Both the position numbers and the translations under genes were made by a program. The notes below the pieces were generated by a model that saw nothing but the letters and a program-made list of their open reading frames with translations, was not told where the DNA came from and searched no databases. A stretch of 55,031 nt of DNA from an uncultured Bacteroidales bacterium (GTDB lineage Bacteria > Bacteroidota > Bacteroidia > Bacteroidales > Paludibacteraceae), in contig CACWZZ010000012.1 in assembly GCA_902765485.1 (NCBI GenBank), positions 1 through 55,031 on the forward strand, written 5' to 3'. Within the stretch, counting starts at the first letter, position 1. Each line of letters begins with the position of its first letter. Of the stretch, positions 10,101 to 29,558 are shown in pieces.

Positions 10101-11192
10101 AGGCATGTACGGCTTGTGGTCGATGTCGTAGATCTCCACTTTGCCGACGATCTCCTGGGTGTTCTCCAGCGCTTCCGGGATGTCTTGGAAGATCTCGTAC
10201 ATCTCTTCCGGCGTTTTGAGCCACTCCTGCTTGGTGTAGTGCATTCGGTTGACGTCGTTCACATAGTGGTTTGTGCTCAAACAGATCAGGCGGTCGTGCG
10301 CCTCCGCGTCTTCCTCATTGATGAAATGCGAGTCGTTGCTGCAAATGACCTTCACGCCGTATTTGCGCGCCAGTTCGATGAGGACAGGGTTGACCTGTTT
10401 TTGTCTCTCGTAAACCTCTTGGTCTCCACCGGGTTTCTGGGTCTCATGGCGTTGTAATTCAATATAGTAGTCCTCGCCGAAGAGGTTTTTGAACCACTGA
10501 ACGGTCTCTTCCGCCTCTTTGAACACACCCTGTTCGATCGCTTCCTGCAGGCTGATTTCTGACGGCTGAGTGCTGATGGCTGATGGCTGACTGCTGACGG
10601 CTGATGGCTGACTGCTGACGGCTGACTTCTGACGGCTGATTTCTGACGGCTGACGGCTGAAGCCGTCCAATATCTTCTGCGGCAACTCGCCGCCAAGGCA
10701 AGCCGAACAGCAAATGATGCCTTCGTGCCATTTCTCCAGCAGCTCTTTGTCGATTCGCGGCGTGTGGTAGAACGCGTCGGACATGTATCCGGCGGAGACG
10801 ATGCGGCAGAGGTTGTGATAGCCCTCCAGGTTCTTTGCCAGCAGGATCAGGTGCCATCCGGAGCGGTCTATGACGTATGTCCGCCCTTCGCCGTTGACAG
10901 CTTTGTCGTCCTTCATCGAGTGTCTTCCGCGGCGGGCACAATAGACCTCGCAGCCCGCGATCGGAGTGAAGGGCACAAAGGGTTCACCTTTCTCCTCCGC
11001 CTCCGCTTTGCGTTTCTTGTTCACGTCCTTGCAGTAATCCAGCAAGTCCTTGATTCCGTACATGTTACCATGGTCAGTCAGCGCCACGGCGTTCATGCCG
11101 GTCGCAATACATTTATCCACTATCTCATCCACTTTGGACAGTCCGTCCAGCAGCGAGTAGTGGGAGTGCACATGCAAATGTGTAAAATTCAT
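7110..11192 (-). CDS. dnaE: DNA polymerase III subunit alpha
   Basis: Replicative polymerase. The PHP domain starts at once (HLHVHSHYSLLDG, ALTDHGNMYG, CSNDSHF), with metal-binding residues apparently intact. The catalytic core has GPGRGSAAGSVVAYCL and PDIDTDFEDCGRG near residue 490. Helix-hairpin-helix (GLGGIKGVGEGAAEAI) and OB-fold regions follow, with an acidic linker near 1120-1165. At 1360 residues it is long; part of the excess is about 40 residues of heptamer repeat (QPSAVSSQPSA type) near 174-213 in the PHP domain. ATG 11192 was chosen because a further upstream ATG at 11213 lies inside the promoter -7 box. First gene of dnaE-folC-prmA. Confidence 0.96.
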   Translation of the reverse strand: MNFTHLHVHSHYSLLDGLSKVDEIVDKCIATGMNAVALTDHGNMYGIKDLLDYCKDVNKKRKAEAEEKGEPFVPFTPIAGCEVYCARRGRHSMKDDKAVNGEGRTYVIDRSGWHLILLAKNLEGYHNLCRIVSAGYMSDAFYHTPRIDKELLEKWHEGIICCSACLGGELPQKILDGFSRQPSEISRQKSAVSSQPSAVSSQPSAISTQPSEISLQEAIEQGVFKEAEETVQWFKNLFGEDYYIELQRHETQKPGGDQEVYERQKQVNPVLIELARKYGVKVICSNDSHFINEEDAEAHDRLICLSTNHYVNDVNRMHYTKQEWLKTPEEMYEIFQDIPEALENTQEIVGKVEIYDIDHKPYMPKFDIPASFGNESDYPDRLAFESAYLRHLTMEGAKVRYGEKRLAEDEELKERIEFELNTIINMGFPGYFLIVMDFIRAAREELDVSVGPGRGSAAGSVVAYCLKITDLDPMQYDLLFERFLNPDRISLPDIDTDFEDCGRGKVLDYVSRKYGETHVAHIVTYGKMATKSALADVGRVQQVPLPKVNELKGLIPDREFPDSVLKKLPAGTTKKPKVNLRNCYQYVDELEHEYKFGDPNIRSMLDYAARLEGTIRQVGVHACGVIIGADDLTNFAPLSSVEDKTTKKRVLVTEYDGHVVESVGLIKMDFLGLITLTIIKECLRNIKKARGEDVDIDHIPIDDAETYKLFQEGRTVAVFQFESGGMQKYLRELKPTVIGDLIAMNALYRPGPMDYIPQFIRRKQGIEPVTYDIPVMEKYLKDTYGVTVYQEQVMLLSRLLANFTRGESDKLRKAMGKKQMSVLASLKDKFMEGGKSNGHDPKILDKIWKDWEKFASYAFNKSHAACYSWVAYQTGYLKAHYPAEFMAANLTVHKDDIKEVTKLMDECRALGLSVLEPDVNESELSFIVNQDGAIRFGLGGIKGVGEGAAEAIIREREKNGKYKDIFDFLERVNLQSCNRKTIENLAQAGAFECFEDIYREQFFGTDEYGSTGLDLLMNYGNKYQADQASNANSLFDDFDIEVEVHHPALPQVPRWNTIERLNKEKELIGIYLSAHPLDEYEYEVRELCNLTANELSLFEGWRKPEERDAAEKRIRAEIAEMTPAAPAQEEDALDFGAPDAAEEDAPVAVETKKTETPPQEEEERPILPSEFIAAHKNQTCLIGGIITEAEQRISQKGNPYGRYTIEDYTGSYTLALFGNAYSQFAHMMLKDLYVLITGVIQQKGNGQRWFKEQPDEKAEYEFIVQKVEMLNEAQDKRTDGLNITLALNRLTPELADELAEQISSNKGQGRLHVAIYNPSTRQSVALTSRSHSIHVTPPLYRWLARRRGEGILDFKVVEKN
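10551..10671. repeat. long heptamer array inside dnaE (CTGANNN units)
   Basis: About 17 consecutive CTGANNN heptamers (CTGATGG, CTGACGG, CTGACTG, CTGACTT). The minus strand is stop-free and encodes a heptapeptide pattern SAVSSQP within the PHP region; the + strand has a TGA in every unit. It is the longest array of this kind in the window. Confidence 0.95.
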
Positions 11193-11210
11193 AGTACTCC
11201 AAATTTGCTG

Positions 11211-11241
11211 CAAAGTTACTGCTTTTTTTCGATATTTGCAA
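11211..11241 (-). promoter_or_regulatory. promoter of dnaE
   Basis: On the minus strand TTGC, 19 bp, TAACTTTG (reverse complement of 11211-11218). Transcription would start near 11205, which excludes the ATG at 11213 and supports the start at 11192. A second minus-strand -7 box (TACCTTTG, 11483-11490) lies further upstream. Confidence 0.65.
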
Positions 11242-11500
11242 GTGCACAGGGAGAAAAATCTTTTTTCTGCAAGTTTTTTGAGAGATTTTTGTATTTCGGA
11301 AAGTGGAGATTTTGGTCAATGAAAGCGGATTTTTGGCTAATTTTCAGGTGTTTCGGAATGGAGCGTAACATGCTGATAATCAGTCTTCTGTGTCGTAGTA
11401 TAAATTAACAAAGTCTAGAACTACCACGAAAGTACCCCGATGCGGGTCTTATTTAGGGGTTATTTGGGCTTTATTTCGGGTGCAAAGGTACAACTTTTTT

Positions 11501-11538
11501 TGAATTGTGCAAGTTTTTTTTGAATTGTGCAAGTTTTT
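11501..11538. repeat. 20-bp tandem duplication in the dnaE/giant-gene intergenic region
   Basis: TGAATTGTGCAAGTTTTTTT occurs at 11501-11520 and again, nearly complete, at 11521-11538. On the minus strand it repeats the -33-like CTTGCACAATTC part of the promoter that uses the box at 11483-11490. In 11214-11500 I see only these promoter elements and no gene. Confidence 0.85.
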
Positions 11539-11547
11539 CGCTTTTTA

Positions 11548-11579
11548 TTTGCATATATGCAAAAAAAGTATTAATTTTG
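11548..11579 (+). promoter_or_regulatory. promoter of the giant surface protein gene
   Basis: TTTG 11548-11551, 20 bp, TAATTTTG 11572-11579. The spacer starts with the palindrome-forming TTTGCATATATGCAAA and an A tract. The same stretch is found at 22264-22295. Confidence 0.8.
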
Positions 11580-11604
11580 CACCGGATTTTTAGTACATTT
11601 TTTT

Positions 11605-11718
11605 GCTCGCCTAATGCTTACGCCATCATAGGCGGTGCCGGCAAATTGCGGGTATCGCTTGCGAGCATATATTATTTACTATACCGGCACGGCGAAAGCC
11701 GTCCTTAAGGAAGGCGAG
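11605..11718 (+). promoter_or_regulatory. structured 5' leader with alternative pairings
   Basis: Within the leader of about 215 nt one can draw CGCC/GGCG (11621-24/11631-34), GTGCCGG/CCGGCAC (11635-41/11684-90) and ACGGC-GAAA-GCCGT with a GNRA loop (11689-11702). The string around 11605-11612 can pair either with GCGAGC(A) at 11661-11667 or with AGGCGAG at 11712-11718, but not both. No known riboswitch class is recognised. A short open frame also runs to the stop at 11754-11756. Confidence 0.4.
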
Positions 11719-11800: not shown

Positions 11801-14800
11801 ATGAAGACTAAATCGACAGTCGGAAGACTGATTACTCACACCATGCGGGTGGCTGCTATGCTACTATTGCTCGTGGCGGGAACGAACGCCGTAATGGCAA
11901 GTGACTGGGTGCTGAACGAGGACAAGTACTCGGCGACTCATTACACCGACCACCTCTATCTGGAGGTTTTCCTTGCCGACCTTGACTACAGGAACACTTA
12001 CTGTCAGGAGGGAACCCTCATTGCAACCAACGGCAGTAAGAGCATAGACCTGCTGACGCTCAAGTACATCAACGAAGGCGACGATGACAAAGACGACGCC
12101 GAAGTGAAAGCCAAGTTAGTGATGCCGAACGCCAAGGCATGGTTTACCAATGAGGTGTACGGCTGGGGTGAACTAACTGCGAACGAGCAGACATTCACGC
12201 TCCGGAAATGGGGAAGCGACAAGCACTATATGACCGCGAAGATCGACCTCTACTACTCCGCGGAGATGGCGGGAGGTAACTGGAAAATCTATTTCCATTT
12301 CAAGCACTCCAACGACTCCTGGTACAATATGACCCTTGCTTCGAGCGTGGGGACGAGCACGCAACTCGGTCTGAGCGACTTCGACTGGAAATCATACAAG
12401 GTGGAGCGGACGGGCATCGACCAAATGACGTTCACCGTACCTCAACTGCCGAATGACATTGACAGCAAACTCGAAGGCGTACGTATGCGCCAGTGTACAT
12501 ACGACGTGCGTTATACGTTTTATAAACAGGACGGAACTACCGCTATCGTCAGCAAGAGTTACGAAGCGGGTTCTTCCGAGAAGACAGAGAACTGCGCTAT
12601 CCCGGACAGCGTAGGCAATACGGCGCGTATCGATGTGAGGGTGACCGCCACCCATGGAGTGAAGGACCCCGACAACTGGTTCAATGTACAGACGAGGACA
12701 GATACGAAGGAGAACGCTTTCCCCGTCATCCCTGCTCCGGGCGCTATCACGACCGACTACCGCCAGTTTGACCACCAGACGGCAATGACATGGACAACAC
12801 CCTCCGGCTCCAATTATTTAGCCGTAACGCCCTATATCTATCGAATGGAAACGGACAGCACCGGCAATAAGAAATCCGGCTCGTCGTGGAGTCAGCGCGG
12901 CAGTCTGAGAAGCACCCGCGGCGGCGCACTCGGTTTTACCGACGACGGGGCGGATATCGGCACCTATTACAAGTATATGGTGGTCAATGTCCCCACCGAC
13001 TATATCGGCAATGGTGTCGCTGAGAGCAGTCTCAACTCCCCCTCGGACGCGCTACTCGCCAAACTCGGCTCTGCCACCTCGGCGGTAGTGACCACGGCTC
13101 CTTCCGTCACGATCCACGACTTACAGCAGGACACGACCATTAAGAACAAGGTTGTTTTCACATGGCAGTACAGCCGAGTGCCGGTGACCGACGCTACCGT
13201 CAATTTCAAGATCATGCGCAGGAAGAACGCTAACGACGCATGGACCGAATACCGAAGCGACATCAGCGCGGATGCTAATCCGGCTGCGGGGTACCGGGCT
13301 ACGTTTGAAGACAGCGACCTGCCTAATTCCTCGGTCAAATACGAATACAAAGTGCGGTTGGATCTGGCGGGCGGCTACCGCTTCGAGAGTGCAACCGTGC
13401 GAGCCGGCTTGTTAGCAGGCACAACGCTACAGTCCTTCACCGCCTCCAAGGGTACGCATCCCGGCACGGTATCTCTGGACTGGACAGCCAAGCAAGTAGG
13501 AACCGACAACAGCACTTATATCATCTCACGCCGGTATGTCAACTCCACAGAGGATTTCAAACCGGTAGAGAGTATTAGTGGCACGAATGCCACCTACACC
13601 TACCAAGACAACACCGTCCAGCCGGGCTATTACTATGAGTACCGTGTAGAGGTGTACCAGATGGACACGGCAAGCACCCTTGCGCTTCAGAGCACGCTTT
13701 ATGACGTGGGTTTCTGCCAGTCGCGGGGAACGCTCTCCGGTCTCGTCAAATACGGAACGGGAACCGCCGTGCCGGATGCACGTATGTGGCTCCGTCCCTC
13801 CGATACAGGGGACGACAATACCATCACGGGCAGTTCGCAATACGTGAACGGCGTGTCGGAAGGTATAGCCTGGAAAGCGGATTCGGCTGAGTTGGCAAAG
13901 GTCTTCGGCAGCGACAAGGATTATACCGTGCAGTTCTTCGTCCGTCCCGACGCAGGACTGAGCGCAGACGCAGTACTGGCGAATATACCGGGAATGGAAG
14001 AAATGATTACAATGGGTTCCTCCACAACCAACGGTTATCAACTCGAACTGCGGAGATACAATCCTACGATAGATCTCTCAGAGCTCACCGGTGACTACAC
14101 GGCGCAAAACTTTTACATTCTTACCGGGGCTTTGGAAGAGAACTACAAGATTTCTATTGCCGACGGCGCTACGGTTGTACTCCAGAATGTCACTATCGAA
14201 GGAACTGAAGACGAGCAGTACAATTGGCCGGGCATCAACTGTCTGGGAGATGCTACCTTGATTTTGGAGGGTGAGAATACCGTCACCTGTTTCGGTAAAC
14301 TCAATCCCGCAATCCATGTGCCGGAAGGCAAGACGCTTACCATCAAAGGTATGGGTTCGCTGGAAGCCAAAAGTAACGGTATGGGCAGTGGTATCGGCGG
14401 CGGAGCCAAGAATGGCAAGGAAGCCCTCAGTTATGGTAATATTGTCATAGAGGGCGGAACCATCCGTACTATCGGAGGTTTCACCGGTATAGGAGGAGGA
14501 TTCGCCTGCAACGGAGGAGATATCACCATTGCAGGAGGCGACATATATGCAGAAGGTAATGGAGTATTTGGAAATGCCATCGGACCGGGCAGCAGTGTGC
14601 GAGGCGGTACAGTCACTATAGAGAACACCGTCAGCCGTGTGGAGGTCACGCATGATGGGGGATGTCTCTTTGGCGAATCACATGCTGCCTCCTGTGGAGC
14701 AATTACTATCGGAGGAACTGTTTATTGGGATGGCGCAAACTACCAGAACGGCGGGAAAGATATTCTGCAACAAGAATCATACACCTATACCGGTAACGGC

Positions 14801-17800
14801 AGTTGGACAAGTACATACACTCCTGTCAATCATGAGTGTATCATCACGTCCACCGGCGTGACCATCCCTTCCGGCAAGTATTCCTTGCTGACGCTGAGCA
14901 AGAGAGGCAACCAACTGAGCATACAGGTGGACAGCAGTGAAGTAAAGACCATCACTGTCTCAAGTCAAGACTTGTCCGCTCCTTTCTCTCTGGGCGGTAT
15001 GCAGGGCATTGCTGAAGCCCAAGCCTTCAAGGGGTACTTCGCCGAGGTGCGTGTGTGGGACCATGTGCTGACGGACGCGGAGAAAGCCGGTTATTTCGAC
15101 CGCGTGCTGAACGGTCGTGAGAAGGGGCTTGCGCTCTATTGGCCGCTCGACGAGGGCTTGGAGCGGTACGCTTTCGATGCCTCCTACGCCAGCGACCAGC
15201 CCAACGGACGGCACGCTACGGTAGGCAATAACGTGACCTCTTCCACGATCGTGCCTGCGGAGGCTCAGCTCTCCCGCTACGCTGTGACCAACGAAAAGGG
15301 AGAGTACCTCATCCGCGGTATTCCGTTCAAGGGCAGCGGTTCGGGCTACATGATTGTGCCGGAAAAGGGTATTCACCGGTTCAACCCCAACACCCGCTCG
15401 CTTTTCATCAGCCCGACGAGCCTGACGGCGAACAATATCGATTTTGAGGATGTCAGCTCGTTCCCCATGACGGGACATATCTATTATGCAGGTACGAATA
15501 TACCGGTTGAAGGTATTCAACTGTTTATTGACGGAATCGTAGTTACCGCTAACGGCGAAGTGCAAACGACCGATGCGGAGGGACGCTATTCCATCAGCGT
15601 TCCTGTCGGAGAGCACTATGTGGAAGCGCGACTGATGGGACATGAGTTTGTTGACGGCGGGCGGTTTCCGACAGAGGGCACGTATAACTTTGTGGACCGC
15701 GTGCAGCACGATTTCACCGACTCGACATTGGTGAACTTCGTCGGCCGCGTAGCCGGAGCGAAGTACAACGACTCCATTCCTGTGGGCTTCGCCAAGTCGA
15801 AGAACAACATCGGTGTGGCGAAGATCACCCTCCGTCTCAACAACCCTTCGTTCTCCTTCAACTGCTTGGAAGAAGACCATATGACACCGGCAACTACCGA
15901 CCGTTATTTCGAGAGCGACACGGCAGCTATCAAGAGCCACGCATGGACCGGTTCGGGAGAGACGGAGAAAACCAAATATATCTATATCACTACGGACAGC
16001 GCAACGGGCGAGTTCTCCGCCAAGCTGCCGCCGCTCAAGTATGTGATAAAGAGCGTTGATATATGCAAAAACAATGACAATATAGAGTTCACCTCGCTGC
16101 CGGAGGTTGATCTGACGAATGCCAAGCAGGAATCGACCGACTCCCTCCTGCATGTCACAGAGCACGGCGACACGCTGACGAGCAGTTACAAATACCACAC
16201 CAAGAAGGTCTTTACCCATTACTCGAAGCCGATAGTGGACATCCGGGAGAAAGGGCATCCTGTAGGTGCTTTCGGTTTAGATTCACTCATCGTGCCCATC
16301 GACGAGGAGCACACCGATACCCTCCGAGGTGTCTATACAACGGATGGTAGCGGAGCGGTACAATATATGTTCGAGTACCCGGTTTACCAGATGTTAGGCG
16401 GAGTGGAATACGAACTCCACGGCTATGAGGCATATACCAATTACGACGGCGAAAAGCCTGTTACGGACACGGTGAACCTGAATGGCCAGGACCTGACCAT
16501 AGGTAACGAGATGAGTGCAGAACAGGGCGTTATCTACAAAGTGCCGGAGGACTCTACGCGCTACCAGCCGGGCGAGATTTATCAGTTGCAACATGACCTC
16601 GTCACGCTGGACAAAAATGGCCGTGCTACGCTGCGGTGGACAGTAGGTGCGCCGAATATAACCAGTCCCTTCACCCGCCAGTTCAATATCACCCTCAAAC
16701 GCGACGACCGTACCTATGAGCCGTTCCGCATGACTGCCATCGTGCTGGGCAACCTCACCACAGGCAACAACTTCGTCACCAAAGGACCGGATCATATACA
16801 GTTCATCCTGCGTGACCCGTATGGCGCACAATCCAAGACGACGCTGAAGAAAGGTACGGTAAATACCGTCAGCAAATACTACACCTACCAGCGCTCCGGT
16901 GACCATTCAGCGATTTCGGATTGGTTCGCCGGAACGGAAGTAGCCACGGCAGTCGGAATAGGAGTCGCACTGATCAATTCATCCAATATAATTACCACGC
17001 TCACCGGCGGGATAAAAGCCAATTGGAAATATACGCACAAGCAGGACTCTATCTTCCAAACCACTACGGTCGAATCTATCTCTACCAGTGACAAAGCCCC
17101 CTATGTAGGCGCCCGAGGGGACGTGTATGTCGGCACATCGAACAATATCCTCATCGGCAAATGCCGCAAGGTTTGTGTGAAGAAGGACGTACAGACCGGT
17201 CGTTACCGCATCGTGCTGGAAGACGCGCTGGCAACCGGCGCTACCATCAACACGGTATTCGCCTATACGCAGTATGACCTGGAGACCGTCATGATACCCA
17301 AATGGAAGGACCAGCGCAGGCAATACTTGACGCAAGTGGCAACGGAGCAGGAGGCACGCAACTATGTGAACACCGGTCAGCATGTCAAGTGCATCACATG
17401 GTTTGATCCAAGCAATGAACATTATGGAGACTCAGGCACCTATGTGTTCGTCCGTCCTCAGGATACACTACTATATCCGGAGAAAACAGAGATAGACAGC
17501 GTACGATGGTGCAACAACCAGATTAAGGCGTGGGAAAACTGCATCCGGAAGAACGAGGAGGCGAAAATCAAAGTCATGGACGGCACCAAATCCCCGCAGA
17601 ACTATTCTATAGACGGCGGTTCTTCCCGCACTTTCACTTTCCGCCACGACACCACTTCTATAGACCAACAACTGACCGACTATTCGGTTCTTGCGGTAAT
17701 TGGTTGGAAAAACAATTGGCGGATCAAAAATTACATCGATGTAGGTTTTCAAACCAATACCCAGCACTTAGTAGGCGGTGGTAGCATCAGTGGATCGGGC

Positions 17801-20800
17801 AATGACTCGACGAGCTATACCGAATGGGAGTATGTACTCAAAGACGGCAACCGCGACACAGAGATCTCTGTGAACATGTACGATGCGGAGTGCGGCAACA
17901 ACAGCAAGATCTTCTCCCTCTTCGGCGGACAGACCTACAACCCCTACGAGCCTGCCGACTCGACCCATTTCTACATGGGCTCAGACGGCAAGCCGCTGCC
18001 ATTAGGCAACGGTTCAGTAAGGATGGAACAGCCGGATATCCGTATCAGCAAGGGCAACGAGGCCCCCGCCAAGTCCGTCACGCTGACGGACATCCCTGCC
18101 GGACAGAGCGCAACCGCCACCCTCTATTGTTCCAACATGTCTGACGTCCATCAGGCTTTCCCGTTCGGGTATGATGTAGCTATCGCAGAGAACACCGACA
18201 CGACGGGATTGCAGATACTGATGGACGGCGTGCCCATCAACGGACGCACGATATGGACCGATCAAGGAACGACGGTCAAGAAGACCATCACCATCAGCCA
18301 GTCCGACCAGTCGATCCTCCACCATGAGGGTATCAAGCTTCGCTTTCAGTCCCAATACCAGTCTGCTACCATCTACGATGAGGTGACACTTAACGCTCAT
18401 TTCGTGCCGTCCTCCTCGCCGGTAGAACTGAGTGTGACCAACCCCGTCATCAACACCGACCCCACGAACGGAAACGGTACGCTGCAACTGAAAGTCTCCG
18501 GGTTCAACCGGCTCTTCAAGAACCTCAGGAACGTGGGAATCCAATACCGCTTCGCCGGAAGCACGCAATGGACGACGCTCCATACATGGGTGACGAACCA
18601 AGCCGACTCGACGGACAAGAGTTTCAACCTTCTTCCGCCGACAGGAGACCTGCACTTTACCTTGGATATGTCCGATAATATCAATTATCGCGAGGGCGAA
18701 TACGAGTTCCGTGCCTTCACCACGACGCCCTATGGGCATGAGCAAGTACAAGTCTATAGTGACCCGACGACGGTCATCAAGGATATGACCAAACCCCGCC
18801 CCTTATATACGCCTGCGCCCGCGAGCGGTATATTAGGAATAGGCGAACAGCTCTCCGTCGAGTTCAACGAGGATATAGTCCCCGGCTATGTAGGCGACAA
18901 GAACATCATGGTCACCGCCAAACTCAACGGACGGCCTATCGACCATGAGGTGTCCTATCAAATCCTGCCTTACGGAACAGAGCCCAAAACAATCAATCCC
19001 GTGTTCCTCAACGGGGATTTTTCCATGGAGTTCTGGCTCAACTGGCACGAAGAAGGAACGGTGCTCCGTCACGGAGCCGGAGGAAGCAGTTTTGCGCTCT
19101 CCGTTGACGGCGAAGGACACGCCATCGTCAAAATAGCAGGTGCTCAGTTCACTAGCAAAAACTCCGTACCGAAGGATAAATGGACCTTCTTCGCCATGAA
19201 CTACAAAGCGAGCACCATGACCTTCAACATGATCGCGCAGTATGACGAAACAACCGTTTACCTCTTCAGCGGCGAACTTGTGCAGGAGGCAGATATACAA
19301 GTGGCGGACTATGCGATGGACAACTACCTCTATTTAGGACCTATTAACGCGAATATACACAACCTTGCGCTCTATAACACCTATCGGGATGTAATGGATG
19401 CCGCCTCTAAGAAGTACGAGTCGAAAGACACCTATACCTATGGTCTGACGAACTACTGGCCTATGAACGAGGGACATGGAACCATTGCAGGCGATGCGCG
19501 GCACACCCATGATTTCAAGGTACAAGCCTCATGGAATATCCTCAACACCAACTACGCCTTGCGTATTGATAGCACCGCGGGTGCGCAATTCGATATCTCG
19601 CGTATCAACACTGGCATGAATGACAGTTATGCGGTTGAGATGTGGTACATGCCGTCCAACGTCAGACGCGACACCGTCTTTGAGACGCAAGGTCTCTGCC
19701 TGCATTTCGACTCGCTGCGTAACCTCGTTCTCCAATACGGAAAGAAATCGCAGACCGTAGCTGCTTATGCCGATTTCCCGCAGATCAATACCGGCTGGCA
19801 TCATCTGGCACTCAATGTAGTCCGGGGGCAGGCGGCATCCTTCTATCTCGACGGCAAACGTACCGCCGTCATTGCCGAAGCGGATGTACCGGTATTCAAG
19901 GGGGCGATGTTTGCTGTTGCCAAAGGGAACGACCTTTCTTCCGTGGACGAAATCAGGGTATGGAATGCGACGCTCTCCGAGGAGCGGCTGCTGAGCAATA
20001 TGTACCACACGCTCGACACCTCGGATGTCTATTCGCGCGGTCTCGCGGCGTACTATCCGTTTGAGAAAGACAGCACCATCAACGGCGTGAAGACCAAGGG
20101 CTTCACCATGCAGAATATGGCACCTCGCTCCGAGGCGGGCGCGATGGCGGCTGCACAGTTCATGGCTGTCAATGGTACGGCAACGCCTCCGCTCAAGAAT
20201 GCGCCATCCGAGGTACGAATCACAGCCCTCCCCGTAGCATCCGAGCGGAAGGTGGTCATCAACCTCTCCGAAGCGGAGGTCTCGCTCAGAGACATAGAGG
20301 GCACGACGCTCAATATCACCATGTCTGAGGTACACGACCTGCACGGCAACATGTCCAACCCCATCAAGTGGACCGCTTACGTACAGCAAAATACGCTCAA
20401 ATGGGGCAAGGACTCCGTCAATATCTTCAAGAAATACGGCGAGGACTATACCTTCGATGTGACTATTGAGAACAAGAGCGGCCAGATAGAATATTACACG
20501 GTGGAGAACATGCCCGCATGGCTGACGCTGGTGGAAAATGACCAGACAGTAAATAGCCAAACGGTAAATGTCTTTGAGGTTTCACCCTTAAAGACCAAGA
20601 CCCTCCGCTTTGCGGTCAATCCCTTCGTGCCGGTAAGCAACTACGATGTGACGATAGGGCTGAAAGGCAACAACGGGATTATAGAACCGCTTCGTATTGT
20701 GATGAAGGTATCAGGCAATACGCCGGAATGGACCGTTGATCCCGCCCTTTATGACCATTCCATGACCATCATCGGGCAGGTCTATCTCGGCGGTATCCTG

Positions 20801-22165
20801 ATGGAGAACCCGGAGAGCATGGTGGCGGCTTTCATCGGCGGTGAGTGCCGGGGTATAGCACACCCCGCGCAGACACGCGGTACGGCTTATATTACTTTGC
20901 TAGTCTATGGAGAAGATACGTCGAAAAAGGATAGTGCAGCTCTTCTCTCCTTCCGTATCTGGGATGCATCCAAAGGCATTGCCTACACGGATGCCAATAT
21001 CCAACTGCCAAATGACCCAATGGTAAATGAGGTGGTCTTCCGTCAGGACGCAATGATTGGTAATTTTGACACGCCGGCTATTTGGACCAAGTCCGACAGG
21101 GTGGAGCAACTCATCCCGGTACACGAGAACTGGAACTGGATTACCTTCGGCGTAGAGCCGCCCTCCGAATACTGCGACCACGTCTTCACGCCGCAATACA
21201 AGGGTTGGAACGTGCTCGTCAAGGATGAGAACACCTTTAGCCAGAGCTCCGGCTCTATCTTCAACGGACCGCTCAAGCTCGCGGTGAACCGGATGTACAA
21301 AGTGCGCATCCAAAGTACTCCCAAAACAACGGACGCAGTGCTTGATCCGCTGCTTTCCGTCTCGGGCCGTCAGCCTGCCGCCAAGGAGATGCCGGTCACC
21401 CTCCAACTCGGCTGGAACTGGATGCCGTACACCCCGCTCACTACCAAACGCGCAAGTGTTGCACTCGCAGGGGCGCAGCCGAAGAAAGGAGACATGATCA
21501 AGTCGCAGACAGCGGTGTCTATCTACGGCGCTTACGGATGGGAAGGCACGCTCCTCTCTCTGGAGCCGGGTCACGGATACCTCTATTTCAGCGCGGACAG
21601 CACGACCAAGTCCTTCCTCTATCCGGAGGACCTCTACCAGCCCCATGCCCTCCTTGCGGCTCCGGCTTGGTCTGAGCTCAGCCAAACACGCAGTGCTCAA
21701 ACCACTTCAAACAAGCGGCTTGCCGCTCAAGCGTACACCGCATATCCCTCCAACATGACCATGACAATCCGTCTCATGGACGGCGAGGCGGTAGTGGATA
21801 CCTGCGAGATAGCGGCGTATGTCGACGGTGAGTGCCGCGGTGCCGTCCGTGCGCATACCGACAGCCTCTATTACCTCGTCATTGCCGGCGACGGTGCAGG
21901 GCAGCCGATGGAGCTCCGTACTGTCATCCACGGTGAAGAGAGAGTCATAGACAAGACCCTTACCTTCGTCTCCGACAACCATATCGGCACGCCGTGGGAA
22001 CCATATGTGATACAACTCAATCCCGCACAAGATATTGAGGAAGTCGAAAGTCAAAACGGGACAGAGCCTGTCGAAAGCGTGCAGAAGCTCCTCATTAACG
22101 AGCACCTGTACATCATCCGTCCCGACGGCAAAATCTACAACGCTACCGGCGCACGAGTAAAATAA
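11801..22165 (+). CDS. giant exported LamG/beta-helix adhesin-like protein (3454 aa)
   Basis: A signal peptide (MRVAAMLLLLVAGTNAVMA) is followed by beta-rich N-terminal domains and fibronectin-III-like repeats (about residues 430-640). A LamG-type domain (about 685-1120) appears split by a right-handed beta-helix module (about 755-996, GIGGG and ITIAGGDIYAEG repeats). A carboxypeptidase-regulatory-like domain lies near 1223-1290, and two more LamG domains near 2397-2560 and 2581-2750 (RVWNATLSEERL). A hydrophobic glycine-rich stretch occurs near 1712-1740. The C-terminal tail LYIIRPDGKIYNATGARVK matches tails of three other exported proteins here. A cell-surface or secreted carbohydrate-binding/adhesion role is likely but inferred. 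It is monocistronic, between its own promoter and a terminator. Confidence 0.85.
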   Translation: MKTKSTVGRLITHTMRVAAMLLLLVAGTNAVMASDWVLNEDKYSATHYTDHLYLEVFLADLDYRNTYCQEGTLIATNGSKSIDLLTLKYINEGDDDKDDAEVKAKLVMPNAKAWFTNEVYGWGELTANEQTFTLRKWGSDKHYMTAKIDLYYSAEMAGGNWKIYFHFKHSNDSWYNMTLASSVGTSTQLGLSDFDWKSYKVERTGIDQMTFTVPQLPNDIDSKLEGVRMRQCTYDVRYTFYKQDGTTAIVSKSYEAGSSEKTENCAIPDSVGNTARIDVRVTATHGVKDPDNWFNVQTRTDTKENAFPVIPAPGAITTDYRQFDHQTAMTWTTPSGSNYLAVTPYIYRMETDSTGNKKSGSSWSQRGSLRSTRGGALGFTDDGADIGTYYKYMVVNVPTDYIGNGVAESSLNSPSDALLAKLGSATSAVVTTAPSVTIHDLQQDTTIKNKVVFTWQYSRVPVTDATVNFKIMRRKNANDAWTEYRSDISADANPAAGYRATFEDSDLPNSSVKYEYKVRLDLAGGYRFESATVRAGLLAGTTLQSFTASKGTHPGTVSLDWTAKQVGTDNSTYIISRRYVNSTEDFKPVESISGTNATYTYQDNTVQPGYYYEYRVEVYQMDTASTLALQSTLYDVGFCQSRGTLSGLVKYGTGTAVPDARMWLRPSDTGDDNTITGSSQYVNGVSEGIAWKADSAELAKVFGSDKDYTVQFFVRPDAGLSADAVLANIPGMEEMITMGSSTTNGYQLELRRYNPTIDLSELTGDYTAQNFYILTGALEENYKISIADGATVVLQNVTIEGTEDEQYNWPGINCLGDATLILEGENTVTCFGKLNPAIHVPEGKTLTIKGMGSLEAKSNGMGSGIGGGAKNGKEALSYGNIVIEGGTIRTIGGFTGIGGGFACNGGDITIAGGDIYAEGNGVFGNAIGPGSSVRGGTVTIENTVSRVEVTHDGGCLFGESHAASCGAITIGGTVYWDGANYQNGGKDILQQESYTYTGNGSWTSTYTPVNHECIITSTGVTIPSGKYSLLTLSKRGNQLSIQVDSSEVKTITVSSQDLSAPFSLGGMQGIAEAQAFKGYFAEVRVWDHVLTDAEKAGYFDRVLNGREKGLALYWPLDEGLERYAFDASYASDQPNGRHATVGNNVTSSTIVPAEAQLSRYAVTNEKGEYLIRGIPFKGSGSGYMIVPEKGIHRFNPNTRSLFISPTSLTANNIDFEDVSSFPMTGHIYYAGTNIPVEGIQLFIDGIVVTANGEVQTTDAEGRYSISVPVGEHYVEARLMGHEFVDGGRFPTEGTYNFVDRVQHDFTDSTLVNFVGRVAGAKYNDSIPVGFAKSKNNIGVAKITLRLNNPSFSFNCLEEDHMTPATTDRYFESDTAAIKSHAWTGSGETEKTKYIYITTDSATGEFSAKLPPLKYVIKSVDICKNNDNIEFTSLPEVDLTNAKQESTDSLLHVTEHGDTLTSSYKYHTKKVFTHYSKPIVDIREKGHPVGAFGLDSLIVPIDEEHTDTLRGVYTTDGSGAVQYMFEYPVYQMLGGVEYELHGYEAYTNYDGEKPVTDTVNLNGQDLTIGNEMSAEQGVIYKVPEDSTRYQPGEIYQLQHDLVTLDKNGRATLRWTVGAPNITSPFTRQFNITLKRDDRTYEPFRMTAIVLGNLTTGNNFVTKGPDHIQFILRDPYGAQSKTTLKKGTVNTVSKYYTYQRSGDHSAISDWFAGTEVATAVGIGVALINSSNIITTLTGGIKANWKYTHKQDSIFQTTTVESISTSDKAPYVGARGDVYVGTSNNILIGKCRKVCVKKDVQTGRYRIVLEDALATGATINTVFAYTQYDLETVMIPKWKDQRRQYLTQVATEQEARNYVNTGQHVKCITWFDPSNEHYGDSGTYVFVRPQDTLLYPEKTEIDSVRWCNNQIKAWENCIRKNEEAKIKVMDGTKSPQNYSIDGGSSRTFTFRHDTTSIDQQLTDYSVLAVIGWKNNWRIKNYIDVGFQTNTQHLVGGGSISGSGNDSTSYTEWEYVLKDGNRDTEISVNMYDAECGNNSKIFSLFGGQTYNPYEPADSTHFYMGSDGKPLPLGNGSVRMEQPDIRISKGNEAPAKSVTLTDIPAGQSATATLYCSNMSDVHQAFPFGYDVAIAENTDTTGLQILMDGVPINGRTIWTDQGTTVKKTITISQSDQSILHHEGIKLRFQSQYQSATIYDEVTLNAHFVPSSSPVELSVTNPVINTDPTNGNGTLQLKVSGFNRLFKNLRNVGIQYRFAGSTQWTTLHTWVTNQADSTDKSFNLLPPTGDLHFTLDMSDNINYREGEYEFRAFTTTPYGHEQVQVYSDPTTVIKDMTKPRPLYTPAPASGILGIGEQLSVEFNEDIVPGYVGDKNIMVTAKLNGRPIDHEVSYQILPYGTEPKTINPVFLNGDFSMEFWLNWHEEGTVLRHGAGGSSFALSVDGEGHAIVKIAGAQFTSKNSVPKDKWTFFAMNYKASTMTFNMIAQYDETTVYLFSGELVQEADIQVADYAMDNYLYLGPINANIHNLALYNTYRDVMDAASKKYESKDTYTYGLTNYWPMNEGHGTIAGDARHTHDFKVQASWNILNTNYALRIDSTAGAQFDISRINTGMNDSYAVEMWYMPSNVRRDTVFETQGLCLHFDSLRNLVLQYGKKSQTVAAYADFPQINTGWHHLALNVVRGQAASFYLDGKRTAVIAEADVPVFKGAMFAVAKGNDLSSVDEIRVWNATLSEERLLSNMYHTLDTSDVYSRGLAAYYPFEKDSTINGVKTKGFTMQNMAPRSEAGAMAAAQFMAVNGTATPPLKNAPSEVRITALPVASERKVVINLSEAEVSLRDIEGTTLNITMSEVHDLHGNMSNPIKWTAYVQQNTLKWGKDSVNIFKKYGEDYTFDVTIENKSGQIEYYTVENMPAWLTLVENDQTVNSQTVNVFEVSPLKTKTLRFAVNPFVPVSNYDVTIGLKGNNGIIEPLRIVMKVSGNTPEWTVDPALYDHSMTIIGQVYLGGILMENPESMVAAFIGGECRGIAHPAQTRGTAYITLLVYGEDTSKKDSAALLSFRIWDASKGIAYTDANIQLPNDPMVNEVVFRQDAMIGNFDTPAIWTKSDRVEQLIPVHENWNWITFGVEPPSEYCDHVFTPQYKGWNVLVKDENTFSQSSGSIFNGPLKLAVNRMYKVRIQSTPKTTDAVLDPLLSVSGRQPAAKEMPVTLQLGWNWMPYTPLTTKRASVALAGAQPKKGDMIKSQTAVSIYGAYGWEGTLLSLEPGHGYLYFSADSTTKSFLYPEDLYQPHALLAAPAWSELSQTRSAQTTSNKRLAAQAYTAYPSNMTMTIRLMDGEAVVDTCEIAAYVDGECRGAVRAHTDSLYYLVIAGDGAGQPMELRTVIHGEERVIDKTLTFVSDNHIGTPWEPYVIQLNPAQDIEEVESQNGTEPVESVQKLLINEHLYIIRPDGKIYNATGARVK

Positions 22166-22263: not shown

Positions 22264-22295
22264 TTTGCATATATGCAAAAAAAATAGTAATTTTG
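22264..22295 (+). promoter_or_regulatory. promoter of the GH3-HAD-acyltransferase-EamA run
   Basis: TTTG 22264-22267, 20 bp, TAATTTTG 22288-22295. The spacer begins CATATATGCAAAAAAA as in the giant-gene promoter, making the palindrome TTTGCATATATGCAAA. Confidence 0.8.
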
Positions 22296-26579: not shown

Positions 26580-26611
26580 TTTGTACAGACGAAATATATT
26601 TCGTACCTTTG
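26580..26611 (+). promoter_or_regulatory. promoter of the putative steroid-reductase cassette
   Basis: TTTG 26580-26583, 20 bp, TACCTTTG 26604-26611, about 38 bp ahead of ATG 26649. It separates the three-gene cassette from the EamA run transcriptionally. GAAATATATTTCG in the spacer is a 13-bp near-palindrome. Confidence 0.8.
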
Positions 26612-26648
26612 TGCGCTATTACGAAACTGAAATATAACAAACAATAAT

Positions 26649-27452
26649 ATGGAAAACATCTACACTATCGAATTTTTCTACGACCTGCTGTACATCATGT
26701 TTATCGTGGGACTGGTCGTGTTTGTATCGCTTTATTTTGTGGACGCTGGCTACGGCAAGATGCGTTCGGAGAAATGGGGCCCGTCGATGAGCAACAAAGC
26801 CGGCTGGTTTTTGATGGAAGTGCCGGTTTTTCTGGTGGTGCTCTATATGTATTTCAAGTCTTTCCCGCTCTATGGCGGAGTGACAAAGAACGTGCCTTAT
26901 TGGCTGTTTTTCCTGTTCTTTGAGTTCCATTATTTCCAGCGGTCGTTTATCTTCCCCTTCCTGCTGAAAGGCAACGGACGGATGCCGTTTGCGATCATGA
27001 TCTTGTCGGTCGTGTGGAACCTGATTAACGGCTACATCCAGGGCTATTGGCTGTTCCATCTGGCGCCGCAGTACTATCCGGATATGTACACGGCGGAGTG
27101 GGTGTTGACACCGCAGTTTATCATCGGTACAATCATTTTCTTCACCGGATGGTGCATTAACATTCACTCGGACTACGTGATCCGCCACCTGCGCAAGCCC
27201 GGCGACACGAACCATTACCTGCCGAAGAAAGGACTCTATAAATACGTCACCAGCGCCAATTACCTGGGAGAAATCACCGAATGGCTCGGTTTCGCGATCC
27301 TCACTTGGTCGCTCGCCGGACTGCTGTTCTTCTGGTTCAGCTGCTGCAACCTCGTGCCGCGCAGCAACGCGATCTACAAGAAATACGAGGAAGAGTTCCC
27401 CGATGAATTCGACCGCAAGAAACTGAAACGAATCATACCGTTTATATATTAA
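26649..27452 (+). CDS. 3-oxo-5-alpha-steroid 4-dehydrogenase (5-alpha-reductase) family membrane protein
   Basis: 267 residues with about six hydrophobic spans. The C-terminal half is the steroid 5-alpha-reductase domain: GWCINIHSDYVIRHLRKPGD, then YLPKKGLYKYVTSANYLGE, ITEWLGFAILTWSLAG and the closing EFPDEFDRKKLKRIIPFIY. Family members use NADPH to reduce the delta-4 double bond of 3-oxo steroids or the double bond of enoyl lipids, at the inner membrane. It is followed after 1 bp by a flavin reductase and then an SDR. This trio resembles the 5AR/5BR/3beta-HSDH genes reported for bile-acid isomerisation by gut Odoribacteraceae and Parabacteroides. Substrate here is inferred. Confidence 0.88.
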   Translation: MENIYTIEFFYDLLYIMFIVGLVVFVSLYFVDAGYGKMRSEKWGPSMSNKAGWFLMEVPVFLVVLYMYFKSFPLYGGVTKNVPYWLFFLFFEFHYFQRSFIFPFLLKGNGRMPFAIMILSVVWNLINGYIQGYWLFHLAPQYYPDMYTAEWVLTPQFIIGTIIFFTGWCINIHSDYVIRHLRKPGDTNHYLPKKGLYKYVTSANYLGEITEWLGFAILTWSLAGLLFFWFSCCNLVPRSNAIYKKYEEEFPDEFDRKKLKRIIPFIY

Positions 27453-27453
27453 A

Positions 27454-28737
27454 ATGAGCAAATTATTTACTCCTTTTCAATTAGGACCTATTACGCTACG
27501 CAACCGTATTATCCGTAGCGCAGCATTCGAAAATATGGCGCGTAATAATGCGCCGACGCAAGCGTTGCAGGACTATCATGTGTCAGTGGCACGCGGCGGA
27601 GTAGGAATGACGACCGTAGCGTACGCTGCAGTGGATTTGAGTGGCGTGTCGTTCGACGGGCAGCTCTATGTCCGTCCGGAGATCATTCCCGGGATGAAGA
27701 AGATGACCGATGCCATCCATGCGGAGGGTGCGAAAGCTTCCATTCAGCTGGGTCACTGCGGTAACATGACCCATTTTTACACCTGTCATTGCATGCCGGT
27801 GAGCGCCGACACATGGTTTAACCTCTACAGCCCGACGATCCACCGGAGACTGAAAGTGGAGGAGATCCACCGGCTGGTGAAGAAATTTGGAGAGGCGGTG
27901 GACTGGGCACGCACTTGCGGCTTCGACTGCGTAGAGATTCACGCCGGACATGCGTACCTGATCTCGCAGTTTATCTCGCCGCGCACGAACCACCGGCATG
28001 ACGCGTACGGAGGTTCGTTTGAGAACCGCGTGCGGTTTATGAACGAGGTGCTGGACGAGGTCATGGCACACGCCGGCGACGACATGGCGGTAGTGGTCAA
28101 GACCAATATGTGGGACGACTGCTGGCACGGATCGGACATCGAGGAGGGAATCAAGATCGCCAAAGAGATCGCCAAGCACAAAGTGCACGGCATCGTCCTC
28201 TCCGGCGGAACCGTGAGCCGTTCACCGATGACAATTCTTGGCGGCGCTATGCCGTATAAGACGCTGGCGCATTACATGAACATGAAATCGTTCTGGTGGC
28301 TCAAAGCGGCGCTGAACATACCCGGAGTGGCACCTATTATGATGCCGACTCAACCCTTCAAGGAGCTGTATTTCATGGACAAAGCGAAGATCTTCCAGAA
28401 AGAGATCAAGGACGTGCCGCTGATCTACGTCGGCGGTGTGCAGAGCGGCGATAACTGCCAGCAGATCATGGACGAAGGATTCGAACTGTTCCAGATCGCG
28501 CACGTGTTGATCAAAGATCCGGAGTTCGTGCACCATGTGCAGGAAAACCCGCATTACCATGCCGGCTGCGGACGATCCAACTACTGCGTGGGACGTATGT
28601 ACACGCTGGATATGAAATGTCACGAGTGCGTGGAGCGCGACGGCGAGAAGATCCCTGCGCGTCTGCAGAAAGAGATAGCGAAACTGGAGGGCAAAGCCCG
28701 TGAGTCTGTTGCCGCACAAAAGGAGGGGAAATGTTAG
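27454..28737 (+). CDS. old-yellow-enzyme-family NADH:flavin oxidoreductase (5-beta-reductase-like)
   Basis: FMN TIM-barrel ene-reductase of 427 residues: LFTPFQLGPITLRNRIIRSA at the start, SIQLGHCGNM, EIHAGHAYLISQFISPRTN with the substrate-binding His pair, DAYGGSFENRVRF, and a phosphate-binding VGGVQSG near residue 330. It ends soon after the barrel, so the FAD/NAD domain of 2,4-dienoyl-CoA reductase or BaiCD-type enzymes is missing. The C-terminal cysteine group CGRSNYC...CHEC (about 371-391) may bind Fe-S but does not have the usual spacing. ATG lies 1 bp after the 5-alpha-reductase-like gene; the stop overlaps the SDR start by 7 bp. Expected role: reduction of an enone, perhaps delta-4 steroid to the 5-beta product. 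Confidence 0.85.
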   Translation: MSKLFTPFQLGPITLRNRIIRSAAFENMARNNAPTQALQDYHVSVARGGVGMTTVAYAAVDLSGVSFDGQLYVRPEIIPGMKKMTDAIHAEGAKASIQLGHCGNMTHFYTCHCMPVSADTWFNLYSPTIHRRLKVEEIHRLVKKFGEAVDWARTCGFDCVEIHAGHAYLISQFISPRTNHRHDAYGGSFENRVRFMNEVLDEVMAHAGDDMAVVVKTNMWDDCWHGSDIEEGIKIAKEIAKHKVHGIVLSGGTVSRSPMTILGGAMPYKTLAHYMNMKSFWWLKAALNIPGVAPIMMPTQPFKELYFMDKAKIFQKEIKDVPLIYVGGVQSGDNCQQIMDEGFELFQIAHVLIKDPEFVHHVQENPHYHAGCGRSNYCVGRMYTLDMKCHECVERDGEKIPARLQKEIAKLEGKARESVAAQKEGKC

Positions 28738-29558
28738 CATTAGTAACCGGCGCGTCGTCCGGAATCGGACTGCAATACGCTACCGCCTTAGCGCGGGATT
28801 ACCATTGTGATCTGTTGCTGGTCAGCAACCAGGAGAAAGAGCTGGAGCAAGTGGCAGCAGAATTAGCAGAGACGTACGGCGTGAAGACGATCGCACATTT
28901 TGCGGATCTCTCGCTCGCAGACGCAGCGGAGAACTTACATGCATGGTGCAAGGAGAACGAGTATGTGATTGATATACTGATCAATAACGCCGGTGTGTTC
29001 TTCTTCAATCCTTATTGCGAGACCTCGATGAAGCGGATCGACCTGATGTTGCAACTCCATGTGGTGACCGTAGCCAAGTTGACGCGTCTTTTTGCCGCCG
29101 ACATGTGTGCGCGGCAACTGACGGATGAGGAGGCAGCGCAACGCATCTGCGGACACAAGCGAATGAAAGGCTATATCCTCAACATGAGCAGTATGTCTGC
29201 GTGGATGGCGATGCCCGGTATTCAGACCTATAATGCCACCAAGGCGTTTATCTATAATTTCTCGAAGTCCATCTGGTACGAACTGAAGCCGCAAAACGTC
29301 GGTATTACCGTCATGGCGCCCGGAGCCGTGGACACCGCTTTGTTCGGCTTGGCGCCCAACCTGCGCAAACTGGCGGTGAACCTGACTGTTTCCATTCCGC
29401 CGGAGAAACTCGTGAAACGCGCCCTGCGCAAAATGTTCCGCAATAAGAAAGCGGACACACCGGGGTTCATCAACTGGCTCTCGACGCCGATCTTGAAACA
29501 CACCCCGGACTGGCTCGTTTTTCTTGCAATAAAATTTGTCGGAAAATATCAAAAGTAA
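28731..29558 (+). CDS. short-chain dehydrogenase/reductase (hydroxysteroid dehydrogenase-like)
   Basis: Classical SDR of 275 residues: TGASSGIG at 6-13, NNAG near 84-87, the catalytic serine in LNMSSMSAW, and YNATK with Tyr about 167 and Lys about 171, then MAPGAVDT. A C-terminal extension (FINWLSTPILKHTPDWLVFLAIKFVG) is hydrophobic and may associate with the membrane, as in the 17-beta-HSD type 12/3-ketoacyl-CoA reductase branch. It overlaps the flavin reductase, so the three genes are one unit. Role inferred: interconverting a 3-oxo and 3-hydroxy group on the same substrate. Confidence 0.85.
   Translation: MLALVTGASSGIGLQYATALARDYHCDLLLVSNQEKELEQVAAELAETYGVKTIAHFADLSLADAAENLHAWCKENEYVIDILINNAGVFFFNPYCETSMKRIDLMLQLHVVTVAKLTRLFAADMCARQLTDEEAAQRICGHKRMKGYILNMSSMSAWMAMPGIQTYNATKAFIYNFSKSIWYELKPQNVGITVMAPGAVDTALFGLAPNLRKLAVNLTVSIPPEKLVKRALRKMFRNKKADTPGFINWLSTPILKHTPDWLVFLAIKFVGKYQK

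Follow-up and report, generated by a model that had tools for sequence, protein, structure and literature searches.

The 55,031-nucleotide contig CACWZZ010000012.1 (assembly GCA_902765485.1) of an uncultured Bacteroidales bacterium of the Paludibacteraceae, hereafter called the window, carries three adjoining genes for a steroid 5-alpha-reductase homologue (5AR), a flavoprotein of the Old Yellow Enzyme fold (OYE) and a short-chain dehydrogenase (SDR). We consider it likely that these genes form a Bacteroidota steroid A/B-ring remodelling operon, a type whose 5AR acts on bile acids in relatives and for which a similar activity is predicted here. Judged by its sequences, the operon is a somewhat divergent member of a type that has already been described. 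The three open reading frames occupy positions 26649 to 29558, with a gap of 1 bp between 5AR and OYE and an overlap of 7 bp between OYE and SDR:

26649 to 27452, + strand: 5AR, an SRD5A-family membrane steroid 5-alpha-reductase homologue of 267 amino acids (Pfam PF02544, matches in the PDB, structure model)
27454 to 28737, + strand: OYE, a putative 5-beta-reductase (5BR), an Old Yellow Enzyme-fold flavoprotein of 427 amino acids (Pfam PF00724, YqjM fold)
28731 to 29558, + strand: SDR-A, a classical short-chain dehydrogenase and putative 3-beta-hydroxysteroid dehydrogenase (3-beta-HSDH) of 275 amino acids (Pfam PF00106)

The same three protein families make up a known cluster. Gene clusters with 5AR, 5BR and 3-beta-HSDH are named for Bacteroidota in PMC12697870. 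According to PMC10382948, 5AR clusters in P. merdae, O. laneus and B. dorei with a predicted 3-beta-HSDH and an NADH:flavin oxidoreductase that is hypothesised to be a 5-beta-reductase; the 5AR is active on bile acids, and a P. merdae 5AR mutant makes no alloLCA derivatives. The same indirect pathway is described in PMC9645264. In the window, the 5AR, OYE and SDR genes adjoin as they do in this set. An earlier reading of the DNA (the original prediction) had proposed this link, which holds by homology, fold and gene order, and had assigned the proteins to the 5-alpha-reductase, flavin ene-reductase and SDR families, in agreement with the Pfam matches. The window differs from the known cluster in derived OYE residues and in an insertion in the SDR; it also has nothing closely matching the second, Bacteroides-type SDR.

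In the proposed mechanism, OYE, acting as a 5BR, would interconvert 3-oxo-5-beta and 3-oxo-delta-4 steroids, the direction being presumed. 5AR would convert the 3-oxo-delta-4 compound, with NADPH as the probable cofactor, into its flat 3-oxo-5-alpha (allo) counterpart. The SDR would then reduce the 3-oxo group, probably to a 3-beta-hydroxyl (iso-allo). For this organism we infer secondary bile acids as the likeliest substrates; 3-oxo-delta-4 hormones or sterols are the alternatives. Since such an isomerisation route would lead from 5-beta through delta-4 to 5-alpha, it is expected that 5-alpha and 5-beta enzymes lie side by side.

For 5AR, the family is clear from several lines of comparison. 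It matches the Pfam family Steroid_dh (PF02544) at 2.1e-39. The closest solved sequences are PbSRD5A (PDB 7c83, 1e-53) and human SRD5A2 (7bw1, 1.6e-40), and the next match among solved structures is a probable very-long-chain enoyl-CoA reductase at 2e-8. The predicted structure, with a mean predicted local distance difference test score (pLDDT) of 88.3, aligns with 7c83 and 7bw1 at template modelling (TM) scores of 0.86 and 0.80, with no further structure at E ≤ 0.001. Residues E57 and Y95, invariant in the 29 aligned rows, align with E57 and Y91 of human SRD5A2, which we take to be its catalytic Glu and Tyr. The window's 5AR has the SRD5A-family domain, the fold and the aligned Glu and Tyr. 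It shares the fold and these residues with PbSRD5A and human SRD5A2 but is 35% and 31% identical to them, and may or may not act on the same steroid; identity to the 5AR of aligned gut relatives is 46–56%. The original prediction had named clustering with fatty-acid or isoprenoid enoyl reductases as the outcome that would speak against it. For 5AR this is not seen, and such an identity is rejected on the strength of the sequence matches and the fold search. Elsewhere in the genome, PF02544 matches weakly at three places (20.6–24.1 bits), two of them over the family cut-off.

SRD5A homologues, the closest relatives of this 5AR, act on hormones. The natural substrates could hence be 3-oxo-delta-4 steroid hormones or sterols from the diet and not bile acids, which we regard as somewhat unlikely. 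A review lists the Bacteroidota 5AR under testosterone metabolism (PMC12789469), whereas the activity reported for relatives is on bile acids (PMC9645264, PMC10382948). Sequence cannot separate bile-acid from hormone or sterol substrates, and we retain bile acids as the substrates to be expected first for the remodelling operon.

OYE matches Oxidored_FMN (PF00724) at 3.4e-58 and aligns with YqjM, which is also the top Foldseek match of its structure model (pLDDT 84). Its residues H163, H166 and Y168, presumably the catalytic His/His/Tyr, are invariant in 32 rows and align with their YqjM counterparts, so that the protein has the flavin mononucleotide (FMN) barrel with His/His(Asn) and Tyr that defines the Old Yellow Enzyme family. 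A trait that is typical of the family without defining it, an Arg aligned with YqjM R308 (which we take to be an FMN-phosphate contact), is replaced by His at position 350. Identity to the OYE of aligned gut relatives is 49–55%.

The Firmicutes 5-beta-reductases BaiCD and C. innocuum ci2350 share the OYE domain with the window protein, and ci2350 reduces delta-4-3-ketosteroids (PMC12238238), as we propose for the window OYE. Both are longer than the window protein, however, which at 427 amino acids cannot accommodate the C-terminal FAD/NAD portion found in BaiCD-type enzymes; ci2350 homologues of fewer than 500 amino acids were left out in PMC12238238. The NCBIfam BaiCD model NF041087 (642 positions) scores 176.7 bits, in its N-terminal part only, against a cut-off of 825, and membership of this equivalog was rejected. 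Three Cys in the OYE tail (C372, C378 and C389) are invariant in the 32 rows. FadH-type enzymes have a four-Cys iron-sulphur site, of which the three may be a remnant; alternatively, they may form a reduced iron-sulphur or metal site.

The SDR matches adh_short (PF00106) at 6.2e-34, and the motifs TGxxxGxG and YxxxK are present in 21 of 21 aligned sequences. Of 14 loci of the window's genus retrieved together with their flanks, 12 have such an SDR near OYE, at a distance of no more than 160 bases in 10. Within the 21-row alignment, an insertion of 16 residues occurs only in the genus and in g84 (two members aligned), a group of another family, and not in g18, which belongs to the window's own family. 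In two genus loci, the first SDR is immediately followed downstream by a second one with 51–53% identity to that of the window (L059, 7017–7772; L063, 4789–5547). A Bacteroides-type second SDR (SDR-B, taken from L134) was rejected for the genus, since 16 of its genomes, the window's own among them, yielded no close match; the best one (7.9e-13, 34% identity) is at the level of generic SDRs.

The pairing of 5AR and OYE extends well beyond the window. In the same genus, OYE is found in 159 of 178 genomes (E ≤ 1e-50) and in 66 of the 68 genomes with at least 90% completeness and at most 5% contamination. Among 41 near genomes, 5AR occurs in 27 and OYE in 33 (E ≤ 0.001); 25 of the 41 belong to the genus, and both genes are present in 24 of these and neither in one. 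Across 393 genomes of the order, OYE is found in 66 (E ≤ 1e-50), 5AR in 90 (E ≤ 1e-20) and both in 62, which is more co-occurrence than expected by chance (Fisher's test 5.6e-45, kinship uncorrected). Nearly all genomes of the order with 5AR only (27 of 28) have a more distant 5AR of 34–43% identity. Distance was counted in the 54 genomes whose OYE match reaches 43% identity or more across most of the protein; in 39 of them, 5AR and OYE are no more than 1000 bases apart. The other 12 of the 66 OYE genomes, with lower or split matches, lie outside this count.

In a scan of named genomes, an OYE alignment (A1, 23 rows, the first from another family) served as query, and the following counts refer to the best 80 of 588 loci. 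These come from Barnesiella, Bacteroides, Phocaeicola, Parabacteroides, Coprobacter, Caecibacteroides and Sanguibacteroides, and also from metagenome-assembled genomes labelled Odoribacter, Alistipes, Tidjanibacter, Muribaculaceae and others. 5AR lies directly upstream of OYE in 72 loci and elsewhere in the locus in two; it was not found in six, one of them at a contig edge. Adjacent reductases of presumably opposite stereochemistry, which the original prediction had thought notable, are therefore a widespread arrangement among these loci, and one already in print. The window-type SDR-A follows OYE in 34 loci, 30 of which also have 5AR upstream. SDR-B matches in 62, namely in 43 without SDR-A (at least 54% identity) and in 19 with it (32–47%); these 19 weaker matches may represent another subfamily. 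SDR-A alone is present in 15 loci and neither SDR in three. Thus, the place after OYE is occupied by different SDRs across gut genera, and the window has SDR-A only. One locus titled Pseudoflavonifractor (L125, JAMPAQ010000001.1) holds a Bacteroidales cassette with an OYE 75% identical to the query, and is either a mislabelled bin or a transfer.

The gene neighbourhood raises the question whether the substrate of the three enzymes is one of the bacterium's own lipids or isoprenoids and not a host steroid, which we hold to be very unlikely. Upstream of the operon lie genes for a GH3-family protein, a HAD phosphatase, an acyltransferase and an EamA protein, and downstream one for a TonB-dependent receptor. 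The first three are possibly lipid genes, and they are wholly or partly kept beside the operon in several close relatives. However, the stretches fetched for L058, L061 and L062 contain no GH3, HAD or acyltransferase match, none of the three is found beside the operon in the best 80 named loci, and 5AR resembles steroid reductases much more than it does the enoyl-CoA reductase. The source genome (2.1 Mb in 41 contigs, 82.76% complete, with the window being the entire contig C12) yielded no bile salt hydrolase (PF02275). This would suit an endogenous lipid substrate, and a hydrolase as support for a bile-acid habitat was dropped.

The missing hydrolase is also one of the points that weigh against the steroid remodelling operon. 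In the fetched stretches of two of the 14 genus loci, L052 and L062, such an SDR is absent. The alignments covered other Parabacteroides species and gut genera, and P. merdae is not among the best 80 of 588 loci. Lastly, the OYE differs from its relatives at G167, which adjoins the catalytic Tyr168, and at R350. The window organism would thus only presumably form 5-alpha as well as 5-beta products, and the most doubtful contribution is that of OYE, whose genus form has changed at positions that are invariant or nearly so in 106 relatives.

This change was followed in 138 distinct OYE rows, comprising 23 of a derived form, six basal rows and 106 others, with three rows under 42% left out. The derived set consists of the window, 19 other genus members and three members of g84, all at least 73.5% identical to the window; it accounts for 20 of the 25 distinct genus OYE sequences aligned. 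The basal rows, five genus members and g18, have a less changed form. Changes in the derived set include G112H, G167A/S, G222D, F223C, G243K, F253T, R263G/S, R315Q, R350H and H374R, among others, at positions that are kept in at least 93% of the 106 relatives. Position 350, presumably the FMN-phosphate Arg, is Arg in 106 of 106 relatives and His in 23 of 23 derived sequences, and is already His in five of the six basal rows. L060, a basal genus member, groups with the rest of the genus in the trees of 5AR and SDR; in a quick OYE tree, a branch 0.57 changes per site long lies between it and the derived set.

An altered specificity of the genus OYE is possible. On such a view, the enzyme now works on a different ene substrate or in a different direction; the operon would yield 5-alpha products only, and OYE would catalyse a related but different reduction, for example of another steroid enone or dienone. 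We find this conceivable but doubtful. The conserved positions that have changed and the long branch would both fit it, as would ci2350, in which mutating the residue ahead of the catalytic Tyr, the counterpart of residue 167, removes nearly all activity (PMC12238238). Against it, the catalytic His/His/Tyr are unchanged, OYE is retained in nearly all good genus genomes, and the less changed form persists in five genus members and g18, in L060 at the same operon position. On this evidence we continue to favour the remodelling operon with OYE as a putative 5BR.

The three loci of g84 (family f81; three genomes) nest inside the window's genus in all three gene trees. Support at the forks enclosing them is 84–100 by the SH-like approximate likelihood ratio test (SH-aLRT), in trees that are quick and unbootstrapped. 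In the 5AR, OYE and SDR trees, g18 falls outside the genus. Because the g84 genes nest within the genus and share the SDR insertion while g18 lies outside, these relationships suggest that the operon passed horizontally from the window's genus to g84. Spacing in g84 is looser, with 193–583 bases between 5AR and OYE and 20–1659 bases between OYE and SDR. In the g84 locus L066, the operon has different neighbours and an extra gene between OYE and SDR (10897–11682), whose 261-amino-acid product perhaps has a helix-turn-helix and a nuclease part. Among the papers listed in literature searches (at most 15–20 per list, judged by titles and abstract openings and mostly outside subscription journals), none concerned the altered OYE or horizontal transfer of the operon.

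Upstream of 5AR, the following elements were found:

26580 to 26611, + strand: Bacteroidota-type promoter TTTG-N20-TAccTTTG, with TTTG at 26580–26583 and TAccTTTG at 26604–26611 (pattern match)
26589 to 26604, no strand: perfect 16-bp palindrome ACGAAATATATTTCGT within the promoter spacer, a possible operator (pattern match)

The promoter stretch, of the form TTTG-N20-TAnnTTTG, fits what we take to be the Bacteroidota consensus. Shuffled sequence would be expected to contain 0.61 matches to the pattern TTTG-N18..22-TAnnTTTG, whereas the window contains 11. Among 24 distinct upstream regions from the same genus, 17 have a pattern of this form ahead of 5AR. The layout first described, with its 1-bp spacing, 7-bp overlap and promoter, is confirmed by the open reading frame calls and the pattern match, and from the gene spacing we infer a single transcript for 5AR, OYE and SDR.

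The palindrome ACGAAATATATTTCGT fills the promoter spacer and has one match in the window against 0.18 expected at up to 3 mismatches. Of the 24 same-genus upstream regions, 7 have a perfect palindrome in this position, some with changes matched on both arms, and these 7 are drawn from the nine whose 5AR identity reaches 80% or more. The conservation suggests a dimeric regulator and a candidate operator. Four places in the genome match the palindrome at up to 2 mismatches. Three of them fit an extended motif within the promoter pattern, before the operon, a TamB-like gene (G000:C1:55555-55577) and an HD-domain hydrolase gene (G000:C20:30551-30573), gene names being our reading; the fourth lies inside a SecA-like gene, likewise by our reading, without the promoter pattern. 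The extended motif occurs at three genome places against none in a reversed control. The three promoter palindromes could possibly make up a small regulon. The palindrome is absent upstream of 5AR in the closest relative, L054, and in L013; its absence from L054 tells against an essential regulator, and for this reason the operator regulon is kept as a lead only.

Elsewhere in the window, a single open frame of 3454 amino acids spans 11801–22165. Two promoter-like stretches, at 11548–11579 and 22264–22295, have identical first 20 bases, TTTGCATATATGCAAAAAAA, and precede this frame and the GH3-family gene, respectively.

Taken together, the original prediction is partly supported, being right in kind and over-stated in novelty. 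What is new seems small and consists of the divergent OYE, the transfer to g84 and the promoter palindrome. These could be joined in a bolder scenario, in which a fast-evolved OYE now performs a different steroid ene-reduction, at another position or in the opposite direction, and the operon so altered, controlled by a regulator that binds the palindrome, later reached another family of the order by horizontal transfer. This would amount to a second Bacteroidota steroid-ring chemistry in the gut, but we think it unlikely.

Flat (allo and iso-allo) bile acids of Bacteroidota are reported to promote regulatory T cells and to inhibit Gram-positive pathogens (PMC12697870, PMC10382948). Given that OYE is present in 66 of 68 good genomes, a large genus known mainly from assembled contigs may count among the producers of flat bile acids. 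The part that deserves attention is the altered OYE, in an operon that almost all of the genus retains. If a new specificity of this OYE proved true, the genus would become a test case for the bacterial evolution of steroid stereochemistry.

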